43,692 bases of DNA from Actinomycetes bacterium (GCA_021795215.1 JAJYPS010000009.1:1-43692), one strand, 5' to 3'. Counted from the first letter of the stretch, positions 5,561-10,657 are shown. The notes: generated by a model from the letters alone, not told the origin. Numbers and translations: made by a program.

Positions 5561-5640
5561 GCCGGCCTTGGCGGGGCGGCCCCGGTTCGTGCCGGCCTTG
5601 GCGGGGCGGCCCCGGTTCGTGCCGGCCTGGGCGGCCGAGG
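5561..5640. repeat. 30-bp tandem repeat, about 2.6 copies, upstream of his operon
   Basis: gccggccttggcggggcggccccggttcgt at 5561, 5591, partial 5621. Confidence 0.95.
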
Positions 5641-5866: not shown

Positions 5867-5893
5867 ATGCGGAGATGAGTTATCTTTGAAGTG

Positions 5894-7201
5894 GTGACCA
5901 GCTTGTTGGGCGTGTCCGAACTGGTGGGCAGCCCAGTGTCGGATGCTTCGGGTCGTCAGATCGGGACGGCGGAGGACCTGGTGGCCCGCTTCGCCGAGGA
6001 GGGCTACCCTCCCGTGACGGGTGTCGTCGTGACGAACGGGGGTGCGTCGTCGTTCGTGCCGACGCAGCGCCTGGCATCCCTCGGGCCGGGCAGCATCGTC
6101 ACGACAGTGGACCGGCAGCAACTGGGGCCGTTCGAACGTCGCCCGGGAGAGGTGCTGCTGCGCCGGGATGTGCTCGGAAGGCAGTTGATACACATCGACT
6201 CGAATCACAGGGCGCGTCTGGTGCATGCGGGCGAGATCGACCTGGCCGAGATGGACGGTTGGTGGAGAGTGGCCGGCGTGGACGCGGTAAGGCGCGGGTG
6301 GCTGCCGTGGCGGCGCCGCGCCGATGTCGACCATTCGGCGTTCGTGGACTGGACGTCGCTGGACGCGTTCATGCGCCATGTGCCCACGTCACGGCTCAGG
6401 CTCCGGTCGAGACGCCTCGCCCAGCTGCACCCGGGAGAGATCGCGGACCTGGTCGAGTCGGCTTCCCCTTCGGAAGGCCAGGAGATCATCGAGGCGCTGG
6501 GAGAGGACAAGGCACTCGAGGCGGACGTGTTCGAGGAGCTGGACCAGGAGCATCGGCTGGAGATGCTCGCCAACCGCTCGGACGTGGAAGTGGCCAATCT
6601 GCTGTCCCGGATGGAGCCGGACGACGCGGTGGACCTCCTGAGCGACATCGACCAGAGCCGGCGGCAGTCGGTGCTGGCGGCCATGACGCCGGAACAGGAG
6701 AAGCGTCTCCGCAAGCTGCTCGACTACAACCCCAACACCGCCGGCGGCTTGATGAGCCCCCGATTCGTATGCCTGCCGCCCACGACCACCGCAGCGGCGG
6801 CACTGGAGATCCTGCGCCGTGACGAGCTGACGGCGGACCTGCTGGACACCATCTTCACCTGCCCGGCGTTGGACCGACCGCCCGATACGGACGGCCGGGT
6901 GGAAGGCTCCCGTGGGGTGGACACTTCCGGCGTCGGCCTCGCTGGATCGGTGAGGATCAGGGACCTGCTGCGGGCCGATCCGGGTGCGCTGCTGTCGGAG
7001 CTGGCGGACCCGGACCCGCCGAGCGTCACGACGAGCGCGGATGTGCCGGAGATCGCGTTGACGATGGCCGACTACAACCTCGTCTCGCTGGCGGTGGTCG
7101 ACCAGCACGGCCACCTGAGCGGCGTCGTGACGGTGGACGACCTCCTGGACCATCTGATCCCGCAGGGCTGGCGACGGCGGGCGGAGGCTCTGGGTGACTG
7201 A
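5894..7201 (+). CDS. PRC-barrel-like / MgtE N-terminal domain / CBS-pair protein without transmembrane domain
   Basis: LAQLHPGEIADLVESASPSEGQEIIEALGEDKALEADVFEELDQEHRLEMLANRSDVEVANLLSRMEPDDAVDLL... then NTAGGLMSP and CBS motifs; second GTG favoured by TATCTT-N7-GTG. Confidence 0.88.
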   Translation: MTSLLGVSELVGSPVSDASGRQIGTAEDLVARFAEEGYPPVTGVVVTNGGASSFVPTQRLASLGPGSIVTTVDRQQLGPFERRPGEVLLRRDVLGRQLIHIDSNHRARLVHAGEIDLAEMDGWWRVAGVDAVRRGWLPWRRRADVDHSAFVDWTSLDAFMRHVPTSRLRLRSRRLAQLHPGEIADLVESASPSEGQEIIEALGEDKALEADVFEELDQEHRLEMLANRSDVEVANLLSRMEPDDAVDLLSDIDQSRRQSVLAAMTPEQEKRLRKLLDYNPNTAGGLMSPRFVCLPPTTTAAAALEILRRDELTADLLDTIFTCPALDRPPDTDGRVEGSRGVDTSGVGLAGSVRIRDLLRADPGALLSELADPDPPSVTTSADVPEIALTMADYNLVSLAVVDQHGHLSGVVTVDDLLDHLIPQGWRRRAEALGD

Positions 7202-7206
7202 CCCGG

Positions 7207-7304
7207 CCCCGAGACTGGCCCCGCCCCGAGACTGACCGGTCCGAAGACTGACCCACCCCGAGACTGGCCCCGCCCCGAGACTGGGCGGTCCGAAGACGAG
7301 CCCC
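7207..7304. repeat. 49-bp imperfect tandem duplication with nested ccccgagactgg sub-repeats
   Basis: ccccgagactggccccgccccgagactg at 7207 and 7256. Confidence 0.85.
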
Positions 7305-7558
7305 GCCCCCGAGTCTGACCTGTCCGAGTCTGACCCGACCGGAGCGGGGGCCACGTTGCCCCGCTCGGGCACGCTATCCTGTGCCCGCCGGTCGGAACGC
7401 TCCAGCCGGCCAGAGCGGAAGGGGGTGATGCGTTGGTGATCGGTAGACCTCCAAGTGCTACTCCACACGGCGCCCCCGGACTCTCGAACACTCCCTGAGC
7501 CCGCTGCCGGGCGCCGTCCCCACGGCCCGGAAAGACGTACGTTCAGAGGAGACCCACC

Positions 7559-9193
7559 ATGCCCGGAAAGGCATCGCCTGCGCCCGACGAAGCGCCCGAG
7601 ACCACCGCCGTGCTGGACGAGGCCCATGTCGGAGACATAAGGGGGGCGCTGGGCACGATCAGCCGCCACGAGCTTCCTCCGCGGAGGCCCTGGCGGAAGC
7701 GTCTGCTGGCGCTGGCAGCCATCATGGGCCCCGGCCTGATCGTGATGGTCGGGGACAACGACGCCGGTGGTGTCGCGACCTACGCCCAGGCAGGGCAGAA
7801 CTACGGACCGAGCCTGCTCTGGGTGCTGCTGCTGCTGATGCTGGTGCTGATGGTGTCCCAGGAGATGGTGGTCCGCCTGGGCGCGGTCACCGGTGTGGGC
7901 CACGGTCGCCTGATCAAGGAGCGGTTCGGACGGATGTGGGCCGCGTTCTCGGTAGGCGACCTGGTGATCCTGAACTTCGCCACGCTGGTGACGGAGTTCA
8001 TCGGGGTCAGCCTGGCGCTGTCCTACTTCGGCGTCAGCCCGTTCGCTTCGGTTCCGTTGGCTGCGGTGGCGTTGGTGGTGATGACCGCCACGGGCAGCTT
8101 CCGCCGCTGGGAGCGGTTCATGTACCTGCTGGTGGCGAGCAATCTGCTCGTGTACCCCCTGGCATTCTTCTCCGGCCCCAAGCCGGGGTCGATCGCCAGG
8201 GGCCTGTTGGTGCCCGGGGTGGCGGGAGGGTTCAACTCGACGTCCGTCCTGCTGCTGATCGCGATAGTGGGGACGACGGTGGCACCCTGGCAGCTGTTCT
8301 TCCAGCAGTCCAACATCGTGGACAAGCGGATCACGCCCAGGTGGATCAATTACGAGCGGGCGGACACGTTCCTCGGGGCGGTCATCACGAACCTGGGTGC
8401 CGGCGCGATCATGGTCACGACCGCCTTCGCCTTCGCCGGCACCCGGTTCCACGGACGGTTCACGAACGCGCTCGCAGTGGCGCACGACCTCTCGGGCACG
8501 CTGGGACACGCCGCAGGGGCCATGTTCGCGATCGTGCTGCTGGACGCGTCGCTGCTGGGTGCGGCCGCGGTGACGCTGTCGATCTCCTACGCGGTCGGCG
8601 ACGTGTTCGGAGCGAAGCATTCGCTGCACCGGGGCTGGCGGGATGCGAAGGCGTTCTACGGCTCTTTCGCTGCGCTGATCCTGGCGGCCGCAGGGATCGT
8701 GCTGATCCCGGGCGCCCCCCTGGGACTGATCACGGAAGGGGTGCAGGCGCTCGCCGGTGTGCTGCTGCCGAGCGCGATCGTGTTCCTGCTGATGCTGTGC
8801 AACGACGCCCAGGTGCTGGGACCGTGGGTGAACCCCCGCTGGCTGAACGCTGTGGCGACGACCATTGTGGCGGTGCTGGTGGCACTGTCGGTCATCCTCA
8901 TGGCGACGACGCTCTTTCCCCGTCTGGACGTGCCGCTGCTGACTGAGGTCGTCGGGTCGGTCGTAGTCGTCGCGCTTCTGGTGGGAGCGGCGACGAGCGG
9001 CAGACGGCGCAACGCCGTCCCGCCAGTGCCGGCCGAGGAGAAGGCGCGCTGGACCATGCCCCAACTGGCGCTGCTGGAAAGGCCCCGTTGGTCGCCCGGA
9101 CGCCGCGCCGGACTGTACCTGCTGCGGGCCTATCTGGTGATAGCGGTGGTGCTGCTGGTGGTGAAGACGGTAGAGGTCGGCCTGGGGCACTGA
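7559..9193 (+). CDS. NRAMP-family divalent metal transporter (variant binding site)
   Basis: MGPGLIVMVGDNDAGGVATYAQAGQNYG (TM1) and IVGTTVAPWQLFFQQSNIVDK (TM6) aligned to the NRAMP DPGN and MPH motifs; SD gaggag upstream. Confidence 0.88.
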   Translation: MPGKASPAPDEAPETTAVLDEAHVGDIRGALGTISRHELPPRRPWRKRLLALAAIMGPGLIVMVGDNDAGGVATYAQAGQNYGPSLLWVLLLLMLVLMVSQEMVVRLGAVTGVGHGRLIKERFGRMWAAFSVGDLVILNFATLVTEFIGVSLALSYFGVSPFASVPLAAVALVVMTATGSFRRWERFMYLLVASNLLVYPLAFFSGPKPGSIARGLLVPGVAGGFNSTSVLLLIAIVGTTVAPWQLFFQQSNIVDKRITPRWINYERADTFLGAVITNLGAGAIMVTTAFAFAGTRFHGRFTNALAVAHDLSGTLGHAAGAMFAIVLLDASLLGAAAVTLSISYAVGDVFGAKHSLHRGWRDAKAFYGSFAALILAAAGIVLIPGAPLGLITEGVQALAGVLLPSAIVFLLMLCNDAQVLGPWVNPRWLNAVATTIVAVLVALSVILMATTLFPRLDVPLLTEVVGSVVVVALLVGAATSGRRRNAVPPVPAEEKARWTMPQLALLERPRWSPGRRAGLYLLRAYLVIAVVLLVVKTVEVGLGH

Positions 9194-9238
9194 GGGCACT
9201 GAGGGCACTGAGGGCACTGAGGGCACTGAGGGCACTGG
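9185..9238. repeat. 9-bp repeat gggcactga x6 starting at the NRAMP stop codon
   Basis: Direct reading 9185-9238; last copy gggcactgg. Confidence 0.97.
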
Positions 9239-9271
9239 GGCACGTCTCGCCTCAATTCTGCGTCGCCTGAC

Positions 9272-9332: not shown

Positions 9333-9767
9333 ATGCCGAGACCATCCCCCGTAAGAGACGCGGTCCACAGGGTGCTGAGGCAGGAAGGGGCGCACGGGAC
9401 CACGTTGGACCGGCTGCGGGAGCTGGTGGCGGCGGCGGGAGTGCGGGCGGACTTCTCGTCGGTCTACCGGGCAGTGCTGCGCCTGGAGCAGGAGGGGGAC
9501 GTGGTGCGGGTGGACCTGGGGGACGGTGTGTCCCGCTTCGAGGGCGCCGGCAGCCACCACGAGCACGTGAAGTGCGACCGCTGTGGCGCCGTGGCGGCTG
9601 TTCCGGGGTGTCTGCTCGGGTCGGTGGCCGACTTGGTCATGGCCAGCACCGGCTTCGAGCTGTCGCAGCATTCCCTGGTGCTCTCGGGCACTTGCAGCGG
9701 ATGCCGCGGCGGGGGCGGGTCGCCGGTGCGCGTGGCTCCCGGTGCCGGTCGGAGGGCAGCGCTTTGA
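9333..9767 (+). CDS. Fur-family metal-responsive transcriptional regulator
   Basis: Winged-helix TSVYRAVLRLEQEGDVVRVDLGDGVSRFE-like region (FSSVYRAVLRL), GSHHEHVKCDRCGAV, CSGC C-terminal cysteines. Confidence 0.9.
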   Translation: MPRPSPVRDAVHRVLRQEGAHGTTLDRLRELVAAAGVRADFSSVYRAVLRLEQEGDVVRVDLGDGVSRFEGAGSHHEHVKCDRCGAVAAVPGCLLGSVADLVMASTGFELSQHSLVLSGTCSGCRGGGGSPVRVAPGAGRRAAL

Positions 9768-10657
9768 TCAACCTGTGGAACCCGTCCCACGTGTCGTTGG
9801 TCGCCGCACTGGTGGTGTCGGTGGCGCTCGGGATGCTGCACGGCATCACGCCGGACGAGCACACATGGCCCATAACGTTCAGCTACTCGGTCGGCAGCTA
9901 CTCCTCCCGAGGGGGGCGCAAGGCGGGATTTCTGTTCTCGGCCGCCTTCACGCTGCAGCGGGCGATCGCTGCGGAGCTGGCCTATCTGGCGTTGGGCCGG
10001 TTCGAGCTGGCCACACGGTGGCAGTACGAGGTGTACGTGGTGGTGGGCCTGGTGATGGCGGCGTCAGGGCTGTACGTGCTCCGCCGCGGAAAGGCGCTGC
10101 GGGTGGGACCGGACCTGCACTTGGACGGGCGCCGGAACCTGCCGCGGTTCATGCCGCTGGTGCATGGGTTCATCGCAGGGTGGGGCGTGGGTGCGTTCGC
10201 GACGATCGTGTACACGGTGCTGGCACCGGCGACGGGTTCGGCGTGGCTGGCGTGGCTGGCAGGAGCACTGTTCGGCATCGGGACGATGGTGACCCAGGTG
10301 CTGTTCGGAATGGGGGTGGGCGCCTGGATGGCGCGGCGGAAGCTGGCGCCGTCAGACCTGGCATCGGCGGCCCGGAAGGCATCCGGGCGGATCCTGTCGG
10401 CGGGCGGGGCGAGCTTCGTGGTGGTCGGCCTGACGGGGGTGGCGCTCCCGGCGCTCGTGGGCAGCGTCCAGCTCGTCACGCCGATCCACGTGCACAACCT
10501 GCACCATCTGGGCGCCGGGTTCCTGCTGGCAGTGGTCATGCTGGGCGGGGTGGCATTCTGGGCGCTCCGCAAGAGCATCCGGGAGGTGACCGAAGGTCGG
10601 GCTGGGGCCGGCAGCGAAAGCGACGGCAGATCGGTCGAGCGGGTCGACGCACGCTGA
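9764..10657 (+). CDS. Polytopic membrane protein, NiCoT/RcnA-like transition-metal transporter candidate
   Basis: VALGMLHGITPDEHTWPITFSYSVGSYSS (HxxxPDEH, reminiscent of HAxDADH of NiCoT) and HVHNLHHLGAG; TTG start overlaps Fur stop (TTGA). Confidence 0.75.
   Translation: MINLWNPSHVSLVAALVVSVALGMLHGITPDEHTWPITFSYSVGSYSSRGGRKAGFLFSAAFTLQRAIAAELAYLALGRFELATRWQYEVYVVVGLVMAASGLYVLRRGKALRVGPDLHLDGRRNLPRFMPLVHGFIAGWGVGAFATIVYTVLAPATGSAWLAWLAGALFGIGTMVTQVLFGMGVGAWMARRKLAPSDLASAARKASGRILSAGGASFVVVGLTGVALPALVGSVQLVTPIHVHNLHHLGAGFLLAVVMLGGVAFWALRKSIREVTEGRAGAGSESDGRSVERVDAR

Follow-up and report, generated by a model that had tools for sequence, protein, structure and literature searches.

Besides CorA, MgtE and MgtA/B, bacteria have a further kind of Mg2+ importer, the NRAMP-related Mg2+ transporters (NRMTs). 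We analysed a pair of genes in a 43,692-nt stretch of DNA from an Actinomycetes bacterium (GCA_021795215.1, JAJYPS010000009.1:1-43692; this whole stretch is called the window here), in which a gene coding for a soluble protein, P0001, precedes on the same strand a gene coding for an Nramp-family transporter, P0002. Pairs of this kind were described by Shin et al. (2014; PMC4072509), who named NrmT, reported that most nrmT genes adjoin a gene homologous to the cytoplasmic domain of MgtE and that M-box riboswitches lie upstream of nrmT mainly in Clostridia and Deltaproteobacteria, and already speculated on cytoplasmic feedback regulation by the MgtE-like fragment. The gene pair and the feedback idea are therefore not new, and the proposal of an earlier note on this DNA, that the soluble protein gates the transporter in a two-part Mg2+ uptake system, is an independent rediscovery. 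Our literature search found no paper after Shin et al. (2014) testing the MgtE-like fragment.

By the published description, the window pair resembles the operons of NrmT and MgtE-like fragment in C. acetobutylicum (Ca_c0685, Ca_c3329) and A. capsulatum (Acp2976/2977), in which an NRMT stands beside a homologue of the MgtE cytoplasmic domain. It differs from them in the long form of its transporter, which has two further predicted helices, in having no M-box, under which the described operons often stand, and in the PRC-like N-terminal region of its soluble protein, which the sections of the 2014 paper drawn on here do not mention and which is also present in the short-clade partners that we surveyed. 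The closest solved structure by sequence is EleNRMT (7qia, E 1.7e-60; other NRAMPs 3e-22 or worse), which carries Mg2+ and Mn2+, not Ca2+, and does so without H+ (PMC8806188).

A long-form NRMT and its conserved neighbour

P0002 belongs to the Nramp family (Pfam Nramp, 1.8e-76). In alignments, its first transmembrane segment (TM1) reads DAGG, where EleNRMT has NDAGG and ScaDMT DPGN, and its TM6 reads TTVAPW, where EleNRMT has GTTIAPW and ScaDMT ATIMPH. The earlier note had taken these positions as unusual substitutions in an NRAMP-like transporter; both open reading frames of the pair and the residues were confirmed, but DAGG and TTVA fit exactly the DxxG (TM1) and TxxA/T (TM6) of the published NRMT signature, DxxG-TxxA/T (Ramanadane et al., 2022; PMC8806188), so that P0002 carries a textbook NRMT site and is not an odd NRAMP. 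As in EleNRMT, the TM6b histidines are lost (replaced by W244 and Gln) and the TM3 glutamate is retained (E146), while the TM3 aspartate of ScaDMT is Leu in P0002; the proton-path comparison, with TM9 lying outside the residue-by-residue mapping, agreed with an NRMT. The AlphaFold2 (AF2) model of P0002 (pLDDT 92.5) has EleNRMT as its top fold match, with a target-normalised TM-score of 0.89 and 33% identity in the fold alignment. Unlike P0002, EleNRMT belongs to the other, short clade of NRMTs; it has 11 TM segments, and the published work on it involved no partner.

In trees built with FastTree and IQ-TREE, P0002 fell outside the canonical Mn/Fe NRAMPs. The long clade that includes the window transporter was monophyletic with a support of 100 in both FastTree and the IQ-TREE mixture model, and the canonical clade had a support of 99; the long clade joined the EleNRMT clade in the large tree, with weak support for the join (30). 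A canonical NRAMP/MntH was rejected on the residues (DAGG and VAPW versus DPGN and MPH), on the tree position and on the NCBIfam MntH score (122 versus a cut-off of 430). P0002 is a long-form NRMT, and the relation to NRMTs suggested in the earlier note was borne out by sequence, fold and phylogeny.

Transporters for a survey of gene pairing were drawn from relatives of the window genome, from the phylum to which the window belongs and those represented by an Alicyclobacillus and by a genome labelled Alphaproteobacteria, and from 80 named contigs and plasmids, giving 220 after duplicate removal, 208 of which had adequate flanks and were scored for their neighbour. Since the 80 contigs were picked by similarity to P0002, the neighbour fractions are not unbiased; rows from plasmid records were left out whole from structure modelling. 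A soluble MgtE_N protein adjoined 119/152 NRMT-clade transporters as compared with 2/56 other members of the Nramp family (Fisher p 3e-24, nominal because the sequences are related). By clade, the neighbour was present at 46/54 loci of the short clade (with EleNRMT), 73/98 of the long clade (with the window), 0/17 canonical DxxN-AxxM loci and 2/39 others, both of these having the NRMT site. The soluble gene lay upstream on the same strand in 104 cases, downstream on the same strand in 14 and on the opposite strand in three, with at least seven changes of order or orientation on the tree (shuffled mean, 16) through which adjacency was kept. Other gene families within 6 kb of 76 long-clade transporters each occurred in at most 13 loci. 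Plasmids of Rhodococcus, Mycolicibacterium, Cellulomonas and Leifsonia also carry the two genes side by side. L066, L020 and L107 are long-clade transporters whose partner comes from the other, short-clade-type lineage, suggesting that the pair was reassembled by partner exchange. Taken together, the pairing of NRMT and MgtE_N protein is real, specific to NRMTs and robust to rearrangement; the two genes are co-conserved, the opposite of an outcome that the earlier note had named as speaking against its proposal. Alicyclobacillus mengziensis (L064, L229), a host that can be cultured, offers a natural comparison within one genome, which holds two long-clade NRMTs without an adjacent sensor and a short-clade NRMT with one.

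In the window genome (93% complete), CorA is present, P0001 is the sole match to the sensor, and no match to the MgtE membrane domain (PF01769) was detected at this completeness; the sensor has therefore no MgtE to serve there, and an MgtE of its own genome was rejected as its target, with the same caveat.

Riboswitches, the sensor protein and a candidate docking loop

Relatives of P0002 are under Mg2+ riboswitch control. An M-box (Rfam RF00380) lies directly before three transporter genes, between the sensor gene and the transporter (L005, L008 and L012, whose transporters are 66-68% identical to P0002). A model built from five M-boxes and used for the long-clade loci found 30 further ones, of which 26 immediately preceded a scored transporter or the operon containing it, and an Rfam recheck confirmed 7/7 of the M-boxes found by the model. 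Among the long-clade transporters having enough leader sequence, 29/84 had an M-box ahead of them, the bearers being mostly Actinomycetota (mycobacteria, Nocardia, Leifsonia) plus Alicyclobacillus; the same search of 95 further mixed loci, mostly short-clade, canonical and other, gave five matches (L131, L165, L171, L188 and L197). Seven mycobacterial long-clade NRMTs have the M-box 530-715 nt upstream (L088, L098, L103, L106, L109, L115 and L116), and one contig of Actinacidiphila oryziradicis (L085, 11933-16793) holds two long-clade NRMTs and three M-boxes, two of which do not precede a scored transporter.

M-boxes upstream of annotated manganese transporters have been published for a mycobacterial 'Mn2+-type' M-box class (PMC12810186) and for M. 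avium MAV_5197, annotated as a manganese/iron transporter (PMC3774663). The mycobacterial members of the long clade likewise combine M-boxes with NRMT sites, and although neither paper names its genes as NRMTs, our comparison indicates that the 'Mn2+-type' genes and MAV_5197 are probably long-clade NRMTs, that is, mis-annotated Mg2+ importers.

An M-box was present in 17/23 partnerless long-clade transporters versus 12/61 partner-bearing ones (Fisher 6e-6). On the tree this complementarity had the same direction with too few contrasts, and independent pairs were not significant; for this reason we offer only as a hypothesis, which the counts suggest, that the RNA sensor and the protein sensor can replace one another.

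The earlier note had described P0001 as a soluble PRC-barrel/MgtE-N/CBS protein, and its MgtE_N (3.8e-22) and CBS (1.1e-15) domains were recovered in Pfam, with no TM segment by hydropathy and no fused PF01769 domain. The PRC part is supported indirectly: the match in P0001 is weak (0.01, below the cut-off), PRC was matched in 48/63 homologues, and residues 5-131 are mostly beta in the AF2 model (pLDDT 89), from which we infer a PRC-like N-terminus, a candidate docking module. The rest of the protein superposes as one unit, N domain plus CBS pair, on the cytosolic domains of MgtE (2yvy, 2oux and 8gpv; target-normalised TM-score about 0.8), with values of 0.83 for 8gpv and 0.81 for the Mg2+-bound 2yvy.

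Residues were mapped onto T. thermophilus MgtE, taking the roles of the sites from PMC5882242 (Mg2+) and PMC5529423 (ATP). The Mg4, Mg6 and Mg7 ligands are kept, with D244 and D417 of P0001 corresponding to D91 and D247 (Mg4), D248 to D95 (Mg6) and D212 to E59 (Mg7), while D420 corresponds to D250 and N396 to D226 (Mg5, half lost). Among the long-clade partners, the E59 site is Asp, the D91, D247 and D95 sites are Asp in essentially all, D226 is Asn in 68/72, and most have Glu or Asp at D250. Over the six Mg2+ sites, acids were retained at a mean of 0.82, as compared with 0.46 over all acidic MgtE positions (permutation p 0.006), and the retained ligands suggest a working Mg2+ site in the sensor. 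The ATP site is not intact: other residues stand at the MgtE positions Y170 and F227, and R187/D188, though present in P0001, are missing from most of the clade. P0001 also differs from MgtE in having no membrane domain and no plug helix and in its extra N-terminal barrel.

In a tree of the soluble proteins, the long-clade partners grouped in a single clade (69 rows, support 99), whose sister group is the orphan homologues, themselves a clade (support 100). These orphan PRC/MgtE_N/CBS proteins of Actinobacteria (L211-L221, L224 and L226-L228) adjoin a DUF1003 (PF06210) membrane protein and an Mrp ATPase gene at 13-15/15 loci, which hints that the sensor module may serve a second membrane protein as well.

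Beyond the 11 TM segments of EleNRMT, the model of P0002 has two extra helices (458-482 and 513-541) joined by an Arg-rich loop (483-512), which would be cytosolic if the N-terminus is inside, a topology deduced from the model. The loop motif W-x-M-P-x-L-x-L-L is conserved in the long clade, and L505, the strongest column by raw counts, is Leu in 70/73 partner-bearing versus 2/25 partnerless members. On the tree only four independent contrasts were available, of which 1.94 agreed and none disagreed, and three other alignment columns matched or exceeded the score of L505; because of this the link between L505 and the partner is unproven, and L505 was not accepted as a proven docking residue and is kept as suggestive. 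We regard as tentative, and rather doubtful, the wider idea that Mg2+ feedback in the long clade acts through interchangeable sensors, either M-box RNA on expression or the soluble MgtE-type protein on the carrier, with the protein docking on the W-x-M-P-x-L-x-L-L loop (L505), which would decay where the sensor gene is lost.

In the literature searched, the long clade, its riboswitches in Actinomycetota, the exchange of partners and the loss of residues from the ATP site appear not to have been described before.

Proposed mechanism and its alternatives

On balance, we consider it somewhat probable that P0002 is an importer of Mg2+ (also Mn2+) with an accessory Mg2+-sensing feedback protein that is not an obligate subunit. 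P0002 would be a carrier of the LeuT fold; its widened ion site, made up of Asp, Gly, Thr and Ala, would accept Mg2+ in hydrated form and probably Mn2+, with Mg2+ flowing inward down its gradient without protons. P0001 would correspond to the cytosolic Mg2+ sensor of MgtE, separated from the channel and carried on a PRC-like barrel: at high cytosolic Mg2+, the ion would bridge its N and CBS domains and compact it, and the compact form would dock on the cytosolic face of the NRMT and reduce transport, while under scarce Mg2+ it would open and relieve the brake. The results above establish the family, the fold, the conserved pairing, the retained sensor ligands and the riboswitch control of relatives; Mg2+ as the substrate of P0002, the physical contact and the direction of control are what we infer.

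Several points weigh against this reading. In Shin et al. (2014), the MgtE-like fragment was not required for Mg2+ complementation, and the A. capsulatum pair acted as a Mn2+ importer: NrmT gave full rescue of Mn2+ uptake and rescue of Mg2+ only at low millimolar Mg2+, which the co-expressed fragment did not improve. No adjacent partner was found for 25/98 long-clade transporters, about ten of them from genomes that hold no NRMT-type partner at any locus, and the sensor is therefore not obligatory. The sensor has Asn at one Mg5 ligand and lacks the plug helix, the part of MgtE coupling sensing to the pore. The orphan homologues, which stand beside DUF1003 and not an NRMT, retain the same Mg2+ ligands; retention as an NRMT-specific trait was therefore rejected, and it is not proof of gating of, or contact with, the NRMT. 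Neither the window nor its genome has an M-box, and a degenerate one in the 357-nt gap between the genes was rejected, as nothing rose above noise with Rfam or the relatives-built model with filters off; since the members in Shin et al. (2014) include some without an M-box, having one is not what defines an NrmT pair. Because of the same gap, co-transcription in the window is unproven. What stands of the two-part Mg2+ uptake system is thus the NRMT identity, the co-conservation of the two genes and the Mg2+ context given by the M-boxes of relatives, while the need for the partner is weakened by the complementation without the fragment, by the co-expression that brought no improvement and by the partnerless members.

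It is unlikely, in our estimate, that the transporter mainly supplies Mn2+ and that the ion sensed by the MgtE-like protein is Mn2+ or a different divalent one. The full rescue of a Mn2+ importer mutant by A. capsulatum NrmT, which stands beside an MgtE-like fragment (PMC4072509), and the Mn2+ transport of EleNRMT would agree with a Mn2+ role, as would the Fur-family gene directly downstream of the transporter (9333-9767) and the fact that the window genome yielded no canonical DPGN/MPH MntH; this is opposed by the M-boxes before close relatives and the MgtC/SapB genes near the pair on two plasmids, and at other loci the Fur-family gene is not a conserved neighbour of the pair.

We judge it distinctly unlikely that the soluble protein serves another target, CorA or an unknown protein, its adjacency to the NRMT reflecting a shared metal regulon and not contact. 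The sister orphans beside DUF1003 and Mrp genes would fit such a target, as would the co-expression with A. capsulatum NrmT that had no effect (PMC4072509), but adjacency to the NRMT has outlasted rearrangements, movement on plasmids and the exchange of partners, no further gene being conserved with the pair, and the orphans are a clade apart. Accidental adjacency of functionally unrelated genes, for which the 357-nt gap and the neighbour missing in some relatives might be cited, is scarcely credible and was rejected on the 119/152 versus 2/56 counts and the independent rearrangements.

Locus organization and significance

The features of the gene pair are collected in Table 1. Most of the tandem repeats at 7196-7335 (49-bp unit) fall within the gap between the genes. 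Two other tandem repeats flank the pair, a 30-bp unit x 2.5 at 5561-5634 upstream and a 9-bp unit, GGGCACTGA, x 6.7 at 9185-9243, which spans the stop codon of the transporter.

Table 1. Coordinates in the window of the gene pair and its features
Feature	Coordinates	Strand	Remarks
P0001, soluble PRC-like/MgtE_N/CBS-pair protein, candidate cytosolic Mg2+ sensor	5891-7201	+	436 amino acids, GTG start
P0001 N-terminal mostly-beta region, PRC-barrel-like, residues 1-131	5891..6283	+	PRC matches in homologues, model strands
P0001 MgtE_N domain, residues 179-282	6425..6736	+	Pfam, residue mapping
P0001 CBS pair, residues 288-422	6752..7156	+	Pfam, residue mapping
Intergenic gap P0001-P0002, 357 nt	7202..7558	+	
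P0002, long-form NRMT transporter	7559-9193	+	544 amino acids, ATG start, AGAGGAG just upstream
P0002 TM1 ion-site motif D68-A-G-G71 (DxxG)	7760..7771	+	model helix broken at 65-68
P0002 TM6 ion-site motif T239-T-V-A242 (TxxA), then P-W	8273..8284	+	model helix broken at 241-242
P0002 long-clade extension, two extra predicted helices and Arg-rich loop	8930..9181	+	model

A membrane protein at 9767-10657 has no Pfam match and carries an HGITPDEH motif that recalls NiCoT transporters (by eye); it is not conserved beside the pair. A metal operon including the downstream Fur-family gene and P0004 was dropped, since neither is conserved there. The other Nramp-related gene of the window genome (L002, 1402-2706) has a third type of site, DAPS/ATVT, and no MgtE_N gene lies within 1.5 kb of it; judged by eye, it is flanked by a ribokinase-like and an SMC-like gene.

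The survey supplies residues to mutate, a loop at which docking may occur, and naturally occurring loci that either have or lack the sensor, so that the regulatory role of the MgtE-like neighbour, left open in 2014, becomes easier to test. It also suggests that the M-box-controlled 'manganese transporters' of mycobacteria import Mg2+. If the sensor gates the carrier, two membrane folds that are unrelated, the MgtE channel and the LeuT fold, would answer to the same cytosolic Mg2+ sensor.

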